From Desulfocurvibacter africanus subsp. africanus DSM 2603 (GTDB lineage: Bacteria > Desulfobacterota > Desulfovibrionia > Desulfovibrionales > Desulfovibrionaceae), in contig NZ_AULZ01000014.1 of the NCBI RefSeq assembly GCF_000422545.1, forward strand, positions 1 to 64,000: a stretch of DNA of 64,000 bases. Reading direction: 5' to 3'. The notes under the pieces are model-generated. The model ran no database searches. It was not told the DNA's origin and saw nothing but the letters and a program-made list of their open reading frames with translations. Positions 4,199-59,966 of the stretch are shown here, piece after piece; the stretch's first letter is position 1, and every line of letters starts with the position of its first letter. The translations under genes and the position numbers were made by a program.

Positions 4199-4588
4199 GC
4201 TTACCAAGGCTTCAGCCACTCCCTTCAGAGAGTACACGGCAGCTTTAAAGTACTTTCAATAAGCTGAGAAATAGCTGCTGCCGTATTAGGCCTAGGTTTG
4301 TAGAAAGGTTTTACTAATGGCCCTAAGGGCGCATGGCCTATGGCCACTGGCCTTAGCCCAATTTATCCGGATTTATTTTGCAAGATTAAGCGATAAATAG
4401 AGCACCCTGCTCTGGTTTCCGGATGCTAGCCAGCTCGATAAGCGGTCAGCGCTCACCGCCTGACATCTTTTGATGCTATTGCCATACGACGAGCTGGTCA
4501 CGATCATGCTATTTGCAGCTTGCTTTAAACTCAGAAAGGGAAAAGAGAGCCTTAAATACAAGCTGGCCAGATTCACTGCTCAGCAATT
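4199..4588. other. Intergenic region without recognised gene
   Basis: About 390 bases between the ftsY terminator and the first structured repeat. Only short, low-quality reading frames occur on both strands and none has a convincing ribosome binding site. I see no tRNA, known riboswitch or insertion-sequence end here. A GC-rich palindromic patch around 4320-4355 (repeated GGCC and ATGGCC words) is the only notable structure. Confidence 0.5.
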
Positions 4589-4715
4589 AGAGCAGATTGC
4601 TTTTAAGACGCCCGCTCCGGCGTTGACGGCGCAAGTGAATTGCGCCTACGCCGAAGCTAGCGGCAAGCCATGCCGACGCATGGCTTACAGAGCATTTTCA
4701 AAAGCAAAATGCTCT
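4589..4715 (+). repeat. Structured interspersed repeat, copy 1 (MITE-like)
   Basis: One of four ~125-bp related copies in the window. Ends are imperfect inverted repeats: AGAGCAGATTGCTTTT on the left and the reverse complement of AGAGCATTTTGCTTTT on the right. Inside are three hairpins: GGCGCAA/TTGCGCC, AAGCCATGC/GCATGGCTT and AGAGCATTTT/AAAATGCTCT. TA lies at each boundary, as if duplicated on insertion. This copy differs from copies 2 and 3 in the stretch between the first two hairpins. Short reading frames across it are by-products of the repeat and not genes. Confidence 0.85.
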
Positions 4716-4846
4716 AAATACAAGCGAGGAGTATAAAGATGAGTAAATAGATAAGGGCGGGAGAGATTGCTGGAAGCAAGATACTCTGCTGGATAAATAG
4801 GACCGTGGAATGAACGAACAATGCAAATGCATTCTGGTAAAAAAAA

Positions 4847-22768: not shown

Positions 22769-22875
22769 ATTATTTTCAAAGCAGCTTGCAAATGGACCAA
22801 ACGGAGTATCGGGCGCAAGGCTGCAATATTTGGCTTGATTTCTAGGGAGCACTACAGCCGGGCTCTCCTCTCTTT

Positions 22876-23001
22876 AGAGCATTTTGCTTTTGAAAATGCT
22901 CTGCAAGCCATGCGTCGGCATGGCTTGCCGCCGCGTAGGCGTAGGCGCAATTCACTTGCGCCGTCAACGCCGGAGCGGGCGTCATAAAAGCAATCTGCTC
23001 T
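22876..23001 (-). repeat. Structured interspersed repeat, copy 2 (MITE-like)
   Basis: Same element as at 4589-4715 but inverted relative to it. The reading in its own orientation begins AGAGCAGATTGCTTTT and ends in AAAATGCTCT, with TA at both edges. The internal hairpins are perfect, including an 11-bp stem GCAAGCCATGC/GCATGGCTTGC with a CGAC loop. It lies between the M32 terminator and the rpoD terminator, a position between two convergent transcription units. A further GCAATTTGC-like word next to it (about 23004-23013) resembles part of the element's end. Confidence 0.87.
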
Positions 23002-23124
23002 AAAGCAATTTGCATAAGAAATGGGATTTGCCTGACCAACGCTTCATGAGGAGCGGCATATCCCTGGACGACTCAGTTCACTGGCAATTTGCTATAGACT
23101 TACGAATGATGCTGTAATTCAATA

Positions 23125-50408: not shown

Positions 50409-50827
50409 ACGATACCTCCAGCTTGTAGGACGATCAGAAGACGACCGGTAACCCTTGCCAATGACGGACCCCCCGCCCCGGCAGCCGACGGCTTCTGTCT
50501 TCTCTCTGACCTTGCGTGCCCGGCGGCACATGTCTTTTCGGTTCTTCGTTCCTTGATATCACCTCTTGCTAATTCTACTACGTTCTTGAGCACTTTTCAG
50601 GGCTTACGTCAATACCCTTTCAGGATAATTAGGATTAGTCTCACCACAAATACTATCGCATACATAATTCTGATAACAAGCTGCATGCTGAGTTCATAGA
50701 AAAGGCGTTGTCCTCAATCCTTAAAAACCTGAATGCTCCTTCACAAGGTGCATCAAAGAGTTACTGCTTCTCGGTATTCCAACTCTTGCAAATTCCAATT
50801 TATACCTACACGAGCCACACACCGACT
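50409..50827. other. Upstream region of the hyn operon
   Basis: About 420 bases between hynB and repeat copy 3. It should hold the hyn promoter. A TTGACG on the leftward strand (near 50612) is a possible -35, but no good -10 sits at the right distance. No gene is seen. Confidence 0.4.
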
Positions 50828-50953
50828 AGAGCAGATTGCTTTTAAGACGTCCGCTCCGGCGTTGACGGCGCAAGTGAATTGCGCCTACGCCTACGCGGCG
50901 GCAAGCCATGCCGACGCATGGCTTGCAGAGCATTTTCAAAAGTAAAATGCTCT
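50828..50953 (+). repeat. Structured interspersed repeat, copy 3 (MITE-like)
   Basis: Same element and orientation as copy 1, nearly identical to copy 2. It begins AGAGCAGATTGCTTTT, contains the GGCGCAA/TTGCGCC and 11-bp GCAAGCCATGC/GCATGGCTTGC hairpins, and ends AAAATGCTCT, with TA at both edges. It lies between the hys protease terminator and the hyn promoter region. Confidence 0.87.
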
Positions 50954-50963
50954 ATAAACGACA

Positions 50964-54633: not shown

Positions 54634-55959
54634 ATGAGCCAGGAGACCAAGAAGATTTCGTTTGTCTTGCCTGTCATCGTCATTGCTGCCCTGGCATTGG
54701 CGGTTGGAGGCTTTTTTTTGTTCCACGACAAAATGCCCCCTGAGGTCATCGTTTCTCCTGACCATGGGCCTGTAGGTGCGGCGACAACTTTTACCCTGAA
54801 GATGTCCGATCCCGGTTCCGGTTTAAAAAGCGCCGAAGCCGTCCTCAGGCAGAATCAGAAGAGCATCGTCCTTTTCAGCGAGCAGTTTGCCGGCGCGCCC
54901 GGGAACATTGAAAAGCAATTTTCAATCCCAGAGAAAGGCATGCAAGACGGACCATTCACCCTGGAGATCACCGTTCGCGATGCCTCTTTCAGTAATCTCG
55001 GCAAAGGCGGCATGAGTGTTTTTTCGCGCGATTTTCTTAAGGATTCGGAACCGCCCAGAGTCATGGTTCAAAGCTTGGCCCACAATATCAATCAGGGCGG
55101 CATCACAGCCATTGTCTATCGACTGAGCGAAGAGGTGTCCCGCACGGGCGTCATGGTCAAGGACATCCTTTTCCCAGCCCATCTGCAGCCGGATGGTCGC
55201 TGGCTTTGCCTGTTCGCCTTTCCTTACTTCATGGAAAAGGATGAGTTTCGTCCGACTATCGAGGCCGTGGATATCGCTGGCAACTCTGCACGGCAAAGTT
55301 TTTCATTCTTTGCCAATCCCCGTCGATATCGACAGGATACCATCAACATTTCCGACAACTTCTTGAGCCTTAAGGTGCCTGAGTTCCAGCGCTTTTTTCC
55401 TGAAGAAAGCGACAATCTCAAAGTCTTTCTGCGAGTTAACTCCGAGCTGCGCAAACAAAATCTGGATGAGTTGCGAGTAATCGGCTCCCAAACAGCCTCC
55501 ACGGCCCTTTGGAGTGGCGAGTTTCTGCGTATGCAGAATGCGGCGCCCATGGCCGGTTTTGGAGACCAGCGCAGCTATGTTTATCAAGGCAAGAAAATTG
55601 ACGAACAACGCCACTTGGGTATCGACTTGGCTTCGGTACAGCATGCCAATGTGCCGGCCGCCAACAACGGCACCGTCGTTTACGCCGGGTATCTGGGCAT
55701 TTATGGAAACTGCGTAATTGTCGACCACGGGCTCGGTTTGCAGAGCATCTATGCCCATCTGAACACTATCAATGCCGCCAAGGGCGATCAGGTGAACAAA
55801 GGACAGATACTCGGACAATCGGGGCTTACCGGCATGGCTGGCGGCGACCACCTGCACTATGAAGTCACACTGGCCGGCATCTCCGTGAACCCCATCGAGT
55901 GGTGGGACAAGAGCTGGATCGAAAACAATATCGCCGGGAAGTTTCGGGGCGAAAAATAG
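54634..55959 (+). CDS. M23-family metallopeptidase, membrane-anchored
   Basis: A 441-residue protein with an N-terminal membrane anchor (about 9-29, FVLPVIVIAALALAVGGFF), a long periplasmic beta-rich region (about 40-290), and a C-terminal LytM/M23 domain. The zinc motif HxxxD is seen as RHLGIDLAS (about 328-336) and the second motif as HLHYEV (about 407-412). It probably cuts peptidoglycan cross-links or activates other hydrolases. GAGGA precedes the ATG. A strong terminator follows. Confidence 0.92.
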   Translation: MSQETKKISFVLPVIVIAALALAVGGFFLFHDKMPPEVIVSPDHGPVGAATTFTLKMSDPGSGLKSAEAVLRQNQKSIVLFSEQFAGAPGNIEKQFSIPEKGMQDGPFTLEITVRDASFSNLGKGGMSVFSRDFLKDSEPPRVMVQSLAHNINQGGITAIVYRLSEEVSRTGVMVKDILFPAHLQPDGRWLCLFAFPYFMEKDEFRPTIEAVDIAGNSARQSFSFFANPRRYRQDTINISDNFLSLKVPEFQRFFPEESDNLKVFLRVNSELRKQNLDELRVIGSQTASTALWSGEFLRMQNAAPMAGFGDQRSYVYQGKKIDEQRHLGIDLASVQHANVPAANNGTVVYAGYLGIYGNCVIVDHGLGLQSIYAHLNTINAAKGDQVNKGQILGQSGLTGMAGGDHLHYEVTLAGISVNPIEWWDKSWIENNIAGKFRGEK

Positions 55960-55995: not shown

Positions 55996-56013
55996 CTGAT
56001 TCGTCTGAAAGAA

Positions 56014-56047
56014 AGAGGCGGTCTCTTGTTAGAGACCGCCTCTTTTT
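56014..56047 (+). terminator. Rho-independent terminator of the M23 gene
   Basis: A 12-bp perfect stem AGAGGCGGTCTC/GAGACCGCCTCT with loop TTGTTA, followed by TTTTC. Strong intrinsic terminator for rightward transcription. Confidence 0.9.
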
Positions 56048-56070
56048 CATTGCCCTGTGGTCAATCCATT

Positions 56071-56197
56071 AAAGCATTTTGCATTTCAGACGCTCCCTTC
56101 GGCGTTGACGGCGGAATTACATTCCGCCTACGCCTGCGTGGCGGCAAGCCATGCCGACGCATGGCTTGCAGAGCATTTTCAAAAGCAAAAGGCTCTA
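56071..56197 (+). repeat. Structured interspersed repeat, copy 4 (divergent, MITE-like)
   Basis: The most divergent copy. Its first hairpin is GGCGGAA/TTCCGCC instead of GGCGCAA/TTGCGCC, a compensatory C-G to G-C change, with a different loop. The 11-bp GCAAGCCATGC/GCATGGCTTGC hairpin is unchanged. Left end AAGCATTTTGC and right end AAAAGGCTC, flanked by TA. The right boundary lies inside the stop codon of the PEP synthase gene read on the other strand. Confidence 0.82.
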
Positions 56198-59100
56198 TTT
56201 CCTGGCGCGCTGGGCCTCCAAGGCCTTGGCCTGCTCTTCGAAATTCTGGAAACCCGCATGGTGCAAGGCATCCTGAACAGTCTCAGACCAGTTCCAGCTG
56301 GCATAGATGACCAGCTTATGGAAGGTCTCGCGGAAGCCTTCCATCTCCTGCCGATAGAAAGACTCTTTAGGGGTGTCCAGGTTTTCACGCAACTGCTCGT
56401 TGAGCCTGGCCAATTCGCCTTCGTACCAGTCCTTGAGATCTGCTGAGCTCTTATACTTCTTGAGGATATGCTCGTAATTCTTCTGAACAAGCGTGCCCTT
56501 GAGCCTTTCCAGGTGCTTGCCGGACAGCCACTCACCCAGTTTGCTGACCGGGATACCCTCACTCTCGACTTTAGCCATTTCCAGCTTGGTCTTATGATAG
56601 GTGTCGGGCACCACTGAGGCACTGACAATTCCTGCAATGCACACCAGACCGCGCAGGATCTCGCTATTGGAAACACCCTGCCCGCAGAAGCCAACCTTCT
56701 TGGCTGCCTTTTGCCCGGCGAAAATGGTCACTAGGATAGCCCAAACGACACCTGGGTCCTCTTCGTCATAGATATGGCGCAAGCGGGAATTATCGCGGTC
56801 CGTGCCGAGCACCATCTGGGTCATGTCATTGGACCCTATGGAGAAACCGTCGAACTCCTCCAAGAACTGCTTAACAAGAATGGCATTGTTTGGGATCTCG
56901 GACATCAGGATGATCTTCAGGCCATCCACGCCCGACTTGAGCTTATGCACTTGCTCAAGATAGCGTTTCATGCTGCGTGCTTCTTCCAGAGTACGCACAA
57001 AGGGCAGCATGATGTTGAGATTCCGTCCGCCAAAGATTCCGCGTGCAAGCTTGAAGGACTCGAGCTCCCAATCGTGTATGTTGCGCGACACACCCCTATA
57101 ACCGAGCATGGGGTTGTCCTCATGAGATTCGAAGAGCAGGCCGCCCACGAGGTTACGGTATTCGTTGGTCTTGAAGTCCGTGGTTCTGTAGATGATTTCG
57201 CGCCCGTAAAAGGCCATGGCAAACAGGGCGAGGCTCTGGGACAAGGTCTGTACATAATATTCCCGTCCCGAACGGAAACCCTTGGAAATGAGCAGCGCGC
57301 GAATACGCTCAGGCAGAGTCCGCACGGTCTCCATCTCAGAGGCCAAGCCGATCTTAACGGCAACATCGCGGCGCATTTCGGCGATTTCGGCCAGTGTCGT
57401 GGTGACCATTGGATCGTCCTTGATGCGATCCTTGACCTTTTGAATCTTTAGTTCCACATCCTGACGCTGTTTGAGGGCGTCCGGATCCCTGGGCAAGGGC
57501 TCGAAGACCTCGGTCCAGCCCATCACCACGGCTATGTGCGCCTCCAAATCCACTGACGTTTTGAGGATGTCGAAACGTTCGGTAGCCAGTTCCACATGGT
57601 GGTCGAGCTTCTTGTCGAGCTCACGCAGACGGCGGTGGATGGCCAGCACCTCGTCGGTGCCGCGAGCGCTTTCCTTGTTGGTCAGCGCCTCCATCTCCTT
57701 ATCCAGGCCGGTGATGAGGCCCACATAGTTGCGCAATTTCAAGTTGAAGGAAATGATGCCTGCATCAAGCTGCTCGCGGAGTACCTTGGTCAGCTTGGCG
57801 TCCAGCTCCTTGATCTTGGACTCGACGAGCTTTTGCAGCCTGCCGTTGTCATAGGCCTCCAGCGCAGCGGGATGCACGCCGATGTTGCCCAACATGAACT
57901 CGGCGCGGAGCAAACCGACCTCGAAATCAGGCACATTGCGCAAGCGTGACAGGAACAGAGACTGGCCCACATCGGCCAAGATGAGACCGACTTTGGTTTT
58001 AGTGGCAGGCAGAGTGGAAACGTCGATTTCTCCACCAACTTCTACGAGTGGATGCTTCCCACGATAGGCCTTGCCGCGCGAACCATCCACTGTGACGTCC
58101 GCGCCATCCAGCGAACGCAGCACTTCCAAGCGCTGAATGCCGATAATCGCCGGGATGCCCAACTCACGGGAAGTAATGGCCGCATGGCTCGTATCGCCAC
58201 CCACATCCGCCAAGATGGCCGAGGCGATGCGCATGCCAGGAACCATGTCCGGGTCCGTACGCTCTGCTGCCAGCACATCGCCTTTATTGATCTTATTGAG
58301 CTCCAGGGCCGAGCGCAGATACTTGACCTTGCCCTGGCCTGCGCCACGGGAAGCGCCATTGCCCTCCAGGACGACTTCGGCGGTAGGCAGTGCCTTGGGA
58401 TCTACTTCCAGGCGACGCATGAAGATCGTATAGGGGTGATGCTCCAGGTCCTCGTTCCAGCGGGTTTCGGGACGAGCCTGCACGAACCAGAGGCGTGAGG
58501 AGCCGTCGATGCAGAACTCCGTATCCATGATCATGCCGCCATAAGCCTTGCTGATGGCGCGCACACCCTTGGCAACCTCCTCGGCCTGAGCCAAAGACAA
58601 AGACCACCGATAGGCCTCCTCTTCTTCGACCTTGACCAACTCGGTCCCGCCCTTCTCGCTGTAGACAATCTTCTTGTCCTTAAAGCCCATGGAACGGATG
58701 ACGACCTCGGCCCCATCGTCACGCTGAAAGACGTAGAATTTGTCCGGAGTGACCATGCCGCCCACCACGGCCTCTCCCAGACCATAACTGGCGTCGATGG
58801 ATACGAGTTCGTTGCGCGAAGTTCCGCGGCAACCCGTAGCTGTATCGGCCGAGAAAGCCGTACCCGAAATGACCGGGTTGATCATGCGCATGATGCACAC
58901 CGAGAGCGAGGTGTTCTCGATGGCCCACTCTTTCTTCGCCTCCTCGGCGATTGTGTTGTCACCCGTCTCTTCGGCCTTGCGCACGGCATCTAGGATGGCT
59001 TCGCGGCGATAGGTCATGGAACGCAGGTTGTAGGCTGAGGAGCAATCCCACAAATAGGCATCAAGCGCCTGTTTTTCGCCGACGATATTCAGATATGTAT

Positions 59101-59791
59101 CCTGCAGGCCCGCAAAGGCTTTCTTTCGACTGTCCTCGCCCGCAGCCGATGAACGCACTGCTACTGGCACGTCCTCCAGCTTGGCTTCGCGGCATATGGA
59201 CAGGTAAGCGCCGCGCACGGCATCTTCCACATCCATCGGCAATTGCACGGACAAAATGGCGACCTGCACGAGCACCGAGCGCTTACGCAGTTGGTCAATA
59301 CCTTCGGGAGAAACGGCGAAGCCCTCAACCACGTTATTGATAAAGGTGCGTAGGCGGATGAGGTTGCCTTTTTGCGCACTCGTCTCGGACTTGACCTTGC
59401 GGGCTATGGAACGCACAAACTTCTTTAGGAATTCCGGATCTTTATTGATCTCGGCATCGTTCCAATCCGTGTTCACGTATTCCGTATCGACTATGGAACG
59501 GACAAGAGAAGCATTGACCTTGGTTTCATCAAGGACTTTGTGAAACGCGATAGAGGAAATGGCCCGGAACTGTGGGGCCCGGATGCCCGAAACCTGGCTG
59601 ATAATGGCCGTGTTATAGTTCTTCCCACCCACGAGAATCTCGGCATCCTCGCCGATCTCGACGATATCGGCTCCATTGAGCACAAGCTTGTCCTTAAGCC
59701 CTGAGACATGCTCCTTGCCCATGGTCTTATCGCCTTTCTCCGCAAGCTTAATCTGTGGGGTATCTTCAGGTTTAGTCACGGCTTTTGCCAT
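56195..59791 (-). CDS. PEP synthase / pyruvate phosphate dikinase-type enzyme, oversized
   Basis: Forms PEP from pyruvate and ATP for gluconeogenesis. The 1198-residue protein has an N-terminal PPDK ATP-grasp domain (about 150-470; AVRSSAAGEDS near 212), a swivelling phosphohistidine domain with GGDTSHAAITSRELGIPAI (about 528-546), and a C-terminal PEP-binding barrel (about 850-1060; EIPNNAIL, GSNDMTQM, GFCGQGVSN). Usual PpsA is about 790 residues; here a helical insert of roughly 200 residues precedes the barrel, and a helical tail of about 110 follows. AAGGAG precedes the ATG. The TAG stop overlaps repeat copy 4. pyc lies just upstream. Confidence 0.88.
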   Translation of the reverse strand: MAKAVTKPEDTPQIKLAEKGDKTMGKEHVSGLKDKLVLNGADIVEIGEDAEILVGGKNYNTAIISQVSGIRAPQFRAISSIAFHKVLDETKVNASLVRSIVDTEYVNTDWNDAEINKDPEFLKKFVRSIARKVKSETSAQKGNLIRLRTFINNVVEGFAVSPEGIDQLRKRSVLVQVAILSVQLPMDVEDAVRGAYLSICREAKLEDVPVAVRSSAAGEDSRKKAFAGLQDTYLNIVGEKQALDAYLWDCSSAYNLRSMTYRREAILDAVRKAEETGDNTIAEEAKKEWAIENTSLSVCIMRMINPVISGTAFSADTATGCRGTSRNELVSIDASYGLGEAVVGGMVTPDKFYVFQRDDGAEVVIRSMGFKDKKIVYSEKGGTELVKVEEEEAYRWSLSLAQAEEVAKGVRAISKAYGGMIMDTEFCIDGSSRLWFVQARPETRWNEDLEHHPYTIFMRRLEVDPKALPTAEVVLEGNGASRGAGQGKVKYLRSALELNKINKGDVLAAERTDPDMVPGMRIASAILADVGGDTSHAAITSRELGIPAIIGIQRLEVLRSLDGADVTVDGSRGKAYRGKHPLVEVGGEIDVSTLPATKTKVGLILADVGQSLFLSRLRNVPDFEVGLLRAEFMLGNIGVHPAALEAYDNGRLQKLVESKIKELDAKLTKVLREQLDAGIISFNLKLRNYVGLITGLDKEMEALTNKESARGTDEVLAIHRRLRELDKKLDHHVELATERFDILKTSVDLEAHIAVVMGWTEVFEPLPRDPDALKQRQDVELKIQKVKDRIKDDPMVTTTLAEIAEMRRDVAVKIGLASEMETVRTLPERIRALLISKGFRSGREYYVQTLSQSLALFAMAFYGREIIYRTTDFKTNEYRNLVGGLLFESHEDNPMLGYRGVSRNIHDWELESFKLARGIFGGRNLNIMLPFVRTLEEARSMKRYLEQVHKLKSGVDGLKIILMSEIPNNAILVKQFLEEFDGFSIGSNDMTQMVLGTDRDNSRLRHIYDEEDPGVVWAILVTIFAGQKAAKKVGFCGQGVSNSEILRGLVCIAGIVSASVVPDTYHKTKLEMAKVESEGIPVSKLGEWLSGKHLERLKGTLVQKNYEHILKKYKSSADLKDWYEGELARLNEQLRENLDTPKESFYRQEMEGFRETFHKLVIYASWNWSETVQDALHHAGFQNFEEQAKALEAQRARK

Positions 59792-59966
59792 TTGCTTCTC
59801 CTTGCACGTCCAGGATTCTCGAAACAAACGATGCTTAAATCAAAACGGCGTCTACTCCAACTTCTCCGCACATACCGGCAGACTTGTTCAGACATCCCGG
59901 AGCGCGCCGCGAAACTCTCAACCTAACGTACCTAGCGCGAGCCAGCGAGCCAAGTCAATGAGTTCC
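59792..59966. other. Intergenic region between pyc and the PEP synthase gene
   Basis: About 175 bases on the leftward strand. It could contain a separate promoter for the PEP synthase gene; no clear terminator hairpin with a T run was seen, so readthrough from pyc is likely. Confidence 0.4.

Follow-up and report, generated by a model that had tools for sequence, protein, structure and literature searches.

A hairpin with covarying stems forms the core of a short, probably mobile DNA repeat present in about 300 copies in the genome of Desulfocurvibacter africanus

In Desulfocurvibacter africanus subsp. africanus DSM 2603, the hairpin analysed here lies at the core of a short DNA repeat that is probably mobile and of which the source genome carries about 300 copies. 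From our point of view, the combined reading, namely that a non-autonomous MITE of about 124 bp, present in many copies, has this hairpin as its core and that the core is kept as a structure, holds with a probability of roughly 0.78. The element is probably a non-autonomous IS630-type MITE like the pneumococcal RUP. As such, it belongs to a known kind of element, here with a structurally conserved core, and is itself undescribed in the literature searched (no description of the family was found there, subscription papers lying outside the coverage).

Within the whole stretch of 64,000 nucleotides that was analysed (hereafter the window), the core pattern GGCGT-TGAC-GGCGnAA-loop-TTnCGCC-T-ACGCC occurs four times, compared with none in 100 shuffles (Table 1). 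Inner stem and loop read GGCGCAA GTGAA TTGCGCC in copies 1 to 3 and GGCGGAA TTACA TTCCGCC in copy 4, and the exchange of a C-G for a G-C pair that had been noticed in the preliminary description is real; it concerns one pair, 56114/56124, and goes along with a change of the loop. The outer stem, by contrast, had been described as altered in copy 1, which is incorrect, as GGCGT...ACGCC is present in all four window copies. Beyond the hairpin, too, copy 4 departs from copies 1 to 3 at many positions, some of them in the left end, and the flagged pair represents one change fixed in one subfamily, so that by itself it is weak evidence of selection. The statement that the four copies directly support structural selection was hence too strong, whereas the selection claim as such gains support from the covariation among relatives described below.

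Table 1. Coordinates of the four element copies in the window and of the parts of copy 4.
Feature	Position	Strand	Remark
Copy 1, C-type (GAAGC variant)	4590..4714	+	TA at 4588-4589 and 4715-4716
Core, copy 1	4619-4652	+	Pattern scan of window
Copy 2, C-type	22877..23000	-	TA at 23001-23002 and 22875-22876
Core, copy 2	22938-22971	-	Pattern scan of window
Copy 3, C-type	50829..50952	+	TA at 50827-50828 and 50953-50954
Core, copy 3	50858-50891	+	Pattern scan of window
Left TA of copy 4, presumed target duplication	56070..56071	+	Sequence; TA at 158/171 located left borders
Copy 4, whole element, G-type subfamily, 124 bp	56072..56195	+	
Core, copy 4	56101-56134	+	Pattern scan of window
Outer stem, 5' arm GGCGT	56101..56105	+	
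Asymmetric interior loop TGAC, 5' side	56106..56109	+	
Inner stem, 5' arm GGCGGAA (GGCGCAA in copies 1-3)	56110..56116	+	Changed base 56114
5-nt hairpin loop TTACA (GTGAA in copies 1-3)	56117..56121	+	
Inner stem, 3' arm TTCCGCC	56122..56128	+	Changed base 56124
Single unpaired T opposite the interior loop	56129	+	T in 96% of 67 distinct copies
Outer stem, 3' arm ACGCC	56130..56134	+	
Second hairpin GCAAGCCATGC-CGAC-GCATGGCTTGC, 11-bp stem	56144..56169	+	
Right TA of copy 4	56196..56197	+	With 56195, TAG stop of minus-strand ORF 56195-59827

With about 124 bp, the element is too short for a transposase gene. Between its left and right ends lie first the core hairpin and then a second one, whose stem has 11 bp. 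The left border is TA followed by GAGCAGATTGCTTTT in the C-type and by AAGCATTTTGCATTT in the G-type, the right end is AAAAGCAAAATGCTC followed by TA, and the terminal inverted repeats GAGCAGATTGCTTTT and GAGCATTTTGCTTTT pair with each other in the predicted folds. The core hairpin has three tiers (basal, outer and inner stem), an asymmetric interior loop with 4-5 nt on one side and 1 nt on the other, and a loop of 5 nt. Relative to shuffled sequences, folding z-scores lie between -6.6 and -7.4 on both strands and for both the C-type and the G-type.

Allowing up to three mismatches, 316 core matches (160 forward, 156 reverse) were found in the 4.40 Mb and 40 contigs of the source genome, the first 100 of those listed being perfect cores throughout, and the core pattern read backward as a control gave no match in the same genome. 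Where the borders could be located, the left one is TA in 158 of 171 copies and the right one TCTA in 157 of 173. Locus L078 has one copy nested in another: judged by eye, an inverted C-type copy is split at a TA by a G-type copy that has TA on either side. Among the 100 places listed of the 149 retrieved by the second of two anchor rules (see below), 33 carry the G core; these copies share the other left end and further changes, so within this genome the compensatory pair behaves as one inherited marker. Mosaics of the two types occur as well, one with a C core and the G-type left end (C1:265523) and one with a G core and a C-type right part (C9:133164). A second paired change is seen in the outer stem, which has T-A in 150, T.G in 15, C-G in 7, C.A in 2 and A.A in 2 of 176 copies.

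The evidence that carries the structural part of the main reading comes from relatives. A similarity search of 59 genomes gave matches in 8, including the source genome. In other genera of the family the inner stem reads AGCGCAA/TTGCGCT or GGCGGGA/TCCCGCC at the same place, with the fold unchanged, and in one genome (G025), reached via the right end of the element, GGGGAA/TTCCCC lies within AAAGCGCACA/TGTGCGCTTT. The second hairpin is still paired in G018 (GGTAAATGC-GTAT-GCATTTACC), although its sequence is unrelated. In an alignment of 17 sequences from six genomes, which were found by similarity and not by structure (the set excludes four G025 rows that were shifted by one base in the alignment, three variants of the source genome, one truncated L098 copy, the L090 match and repeat copies from G008), 6 of 16 pairs are changed on both sides, 93.0% of the cells are paired and the covariation score is 0.232, compared with 0.135 for shuffled and 0.126 for the best slid alignment.

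A covariance model then recovered the 56-nt core in 67 of 288 genomes of the family, representing 13 of 44 genera, and in a class-wide set of 348 genomes (60 beyond the family set) the same 67 match, all in the element's own family. In an alignment of 67 distinct copies (71 matches), which was collected and fitted with the structure model and hence leans to structure, with controls that keep relatedness, 13 of 16 pairs are changed on both sides (129 cells versus 35.6 in shuffles, a value reached by none of 500) and 94.8% of the cells are paired. The flagged pair is C-G in 42 of these copies, G-C in 17, A-T in 5, T-A in 1 and unpaired in 2. The outer and basal stems, which lie beyond unpaired stretches, covary as well, and the asymmetry of the interior loop is retained across genera. 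These data, which go beyond the four window copies, support the view that the hairpin is kept as a structure: since the fold is maintained while paired letters change together across 13 genera, the fold itself seems to be preserved.

Within the source genome, uncompensated mismatches, which the preliminary description had named as speaking against such selection, were counted in 176 copies chosen by two anchor rules that lie outside core and stem (77 of 78 places by the first rule, 99 of 149 by the second). Eight copies have a mismatch in the inner stem and one has a wobble only, a count that may be low because second-rule copies come partly from loci chosen for perfect cores, and no copy has a private compensated change; in the 77 copies of the first set alone (78 genome places) there are two mismatches and one wobble. 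Departures from the subfamily consensus affect 12 of 2464 sites in the inner stem and 12 of 880 in the loop (p 0.017). The p value rises to 0.19 with the first anchor set (3 of 1078 versus 3 of 385) and to 0.20 when separate events are estimated (about 12 versus 8), so protection of the inner stem in resident copies is not established.

As to how the element might move, we suppose that an IS630-family (Tc1/mariner-like) transposase encoded elsewhere would recognise the terminal inverted repeats of about 17 bp, and that cut-and-paste of the element into a TA would duplicate that TA. Four DDE_3 (IS630) matches are present in the source genome. One of them, L079, is an IS about 1 kb long in which two overlapping frames join at a run of eight A. 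Of 17 bases, its ends share 14 and 15 with the G-type left end and 12 and 13 with the other MITE ends compared, which is similar, not identical, and comes with no chance level. The eight-A run is found at the frame overlap in both IS630 copies (L079 366-373, L080 1404-1411) and looks like a programmed frameshift site. The L079 IS, which borders on the contig end to its left, appears to have gone into the left end of a MITE copy. Among relatives, L268, L273, L275, L278 and L279 hold IS630 copies that measure 988-1000 bp and have TAGAGC-type ends, whereas such ends were not found at most of the 33 IS630 loci scanned; the ends of the source-genome IS copies were read by eye, and the right-end range of the scan missed L079. 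At L268 (in G025) the IS adjoins a related MITE at a shared TA, and at L275 it likewise abuts one at a shared TA.

The side-by-side arrangement of IS and MITE-like ends at L079, L268 and L275 had raised the idea that the core is part of IS630 itself, which was rejected: in 22 of the 33 IS630 loci to which the core model was applied, no core lies inside any IS, and the two cores found near IS630 are situated just beyond the IS end (L079) and about 1.4 kb from the DDE_3 match (L286). The interior of the element is a hairpin module with no counterpart inside the examined IS630 copies, followed by the second hairpin. Both TAGAGCA-type ends are present on only 28 of 67 usable core copies (1.85% in shuffles), and some core copies of relatives carry altogether different flanks; this end scan replaced an earlier, weak scan with a 14-nt terminal repeat (at least 11 matches in 10 of 71 versus 29 of 1420 shuffled). 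Across the 288 genomes, co-occurrence of core and IS630 is modest (23 of 67 versus 15.4 expected, p 0.019, shared ancestry included) and no stronger than that of core and Y1 (39 of 67 versus 28.6 expected, p 0.005, shared ancestry likewise included). Twenty core-bearing genomes have neither an IS630 nor a Y1 match. G098, G099, G141 and G309 have at least 19 core matches each, with no DDE_3 or Y1 match; these may be orphaned families or depend on another mobiliser.

The position of the copies relative to genes suggests why insertions might be tolerated. Among 41 sampled copies, 21 lie between convergent ORFs, 14 between tandem ORFs (7 in the same and 7 in the opposite orientation, with no bias), 3 between divergent ORFs and 3 inside an ORF, and the convergent fraction of copies outside ORFs exceeds that of the gaps in the window (21 of 38 versus 3 of 26, p 0.0005), with crude ORF calling, copies taken mostly from loci chosen for perfect cores and background gaps from the window including its four copies. 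Since the element ends start with TAG or TAA, it seems that a neighbouring gene often takes its stop codon from them: of 314 borders in the source genome, 89 have the stop-reading frame open for at least 75 codons, while the other two frames together reach this in 109 of 628 cases (p 0.0001). For copy 4, the end plus TA (56195-56197) is the TAG stop of a 1210-aa minus-strand ORF encoding a PPDK_N/PEP-utilizers protein. Upstream of the element, between it and the end of the Peptidase_M23 ORF 54634-55959, a perfect 15-bp inverted repeat with a terminal run of five T is found at 56012-56045, so that this gene probably has its own terminator. In copy 4, no T run of the kind expected of a Rho-independent terminator directly follows either hairpin on the plus strand. 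The gene content includes NiFe hydrogenase, PPDK-like and biotin carboxylase ORFs. We could imagine that the folded element, placed in either orientation after stop codons or between convergent genes, would provide a stable 3' end and that its insertion would be tolerated for this reason. Selection presumably acts on the lineage of propagating copies and not on each resident copy, with the C-type and the G-type representing two such lineages.

Whether the benefit of the hairpin lies at the RNA level, in such a stable 3' end, is a tentative matter to which we give slightly less than even odds, and a role at the DNA level is almost as likely. The RNA-level guess is not favoured by the wobble counts or by tandem orientation (7 versus 7). 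G.T and A.C cells number 14 and 6 in the 17 sequences and 43 and 24 in the 67 copies, the latter becoming 20 and 24 once the outermost pair is set aside, and there is no clear sign of a strand preference. In the DNA-level explanation, which we regard as possible though rather less than probable, the palindrome would function as a cruciform or, on the lagging strand, in single-stranded form and would be read through its unpaired bases by a mobilising or host protein. This would agree with the strand-neutral wobble counts (11 of those A.C cells come from one pair), the unbiased tandem contexts, the occurrence of one core in two different vehicles (see below) and the strong conservation of some unpaired bases, namely C at column 24 (99%), T at column 44 and A at column 36 (96% each). 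However, the 5' interior loop (0.89 bits of entropy) and the hairpin loop (0.75 bits) are overall not more conserved than the inner stem (0.66 bits), and recognition of the folded form by a partner is therefore only a suggestion. Moreover, the Y1 transposase is a known reader of hairpins and the source genome has no match to it, and IS630-type cut-and-paste transposition is not known to require an internal hairpin.

A further explanation needs no function of the hairpin at all: template switching between the arms of a palindrome, which has been reported to make both paired changes at once (PMC8794818), would rewrite both sides by mutational bias alone. The flagged pair, which takes the forms C-G, G-C, A-T and T-A while intermediates are scarce (unpaired in 2 of 67 copies, never G.U), and the mosaics between C-type and G-type would fit such a process, and the double change may indeed have arisen in one step in this way. 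Template switching should, however, in time even out the asymmetric interior loop; it does not easily explain why this asymmetry persists across genera, even if it is a possible origin of the paired changes. The covariation of outer and basal stems across intervening unpaired stretches, the second hairpin that remains paired in another genus despite its unrelated sequence, and the lack of any private double change in the 176 resident copies also argue against it, and we consider mutational bias alone unlikely.

A REP/REPIN element moved by a RAYT (a Y1 tyrosine transposase) is highly improbable and was rejected as the origin for the source genome: the imperfect GC-rich palindrome, the high copy number, a GTAG on the complementary strand of the main type, reminiscent of the GT(A/G)G head that precedes the palindrome by definition of a REP (PMC2817692), and the Y1 genes in 123 of 288 family genomes, which accompany the core somewhat above expectation, stand against the absence of any Y1_Tnp (PF01797) match in a genome with 316 core copies (control genomes do match), the loss of GTAG in 22 of 148 C-type copies, those with G at core position 30, and ends that are inverted repeats with TA borders. 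A known RNA family was ruled out for the 8 loci searched against Rfam with E up to 1, which gave four weak matches and none above the gathering score. The single match to a Burkholderia plasmid (35% of the element, E 0.008) was taken as chance, and plasmid carriage was discarded.

Among known systems, RUP is the closest by description, and TA duplication is known for it. RUP of Streptococcus pneumoniae (107 bp, attributed to IS630-Spn1) is, like the present element, short and multicopy, has terminal inverted repeats that resemble an IS630-family element of the same genome and pair in the fold, and is enriched between convergent genes, which was read there as insertion tolerance (PMC3049150). 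The present element differs in its GC-rich core hairpin, which is conserved independently and shows covariation across 13 genera; the available text on RUP contains neither 'covariation' nor 'compensat' (PMC3049150). The REPINs of Pseudomonas fluorescens are likewise short mobile palindromes with compensatory changes across a predicted hairpin (PMC3116915), but they are REP doublets tied to RAYTs, in contrast to the inverted-repeat and TA ends and the lack of a Y1 match found here. Correia elements and ERIC are also MITEs, whose transcripts are, according to a review, affected by RNase III and RNase E, respectively (PMC10969869). Their likeness to the element is one of description. Stem-loop repeats also occur in Borrelia, which belongs to another phylum than the source organism. 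These repeats show numerous compensatory base-pair changes, as does the hairpin described here, but are plasmid-borne, and the abstract makes no mention of IS630-type ends (PMC2674063).

The same core is found in relatives in a second vehicle, in which TGATGACAAA and a hairpin precede the core and a large hairpin and TTTGTCAACGGCCTC follow it (L222, L094, L112, L223, L227, L247, L260 and L242, with L224 assigned by eye). One terminator-like palindrome often recurs in the flanks of these loci: for 8 of 13 such copies, the right flank most similar to the left one is the copy's own (at L242 only marginally), three are ties and two (L088, L241) do not match in this way, as if a whole terminator hairpin were duplicated upon insertion. 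One could speculate that the 56-nt core is an undescribed, family-restricted module carried by two or more unrelated vehicles, one of them an IS630-type MITE and another a palindrome-bracketed element, and that a dedicated partner would recognise its unpaired bases whichever way round it lies, an idea that we find conceivable but would not bet on.

The bacterial MITE families used for comparison are, as far as their descriptions were covered, known from one or a few species. A core whose pairing is kept across 13 genera and in two kinds of vehicle would hence allow a direct test of whether mobile elements are selected for nucleic-acid structure. With its hundreds of decaying copies and many lineages, the system is also well suited to telling selection and template switching apart as sources of compensatory change.
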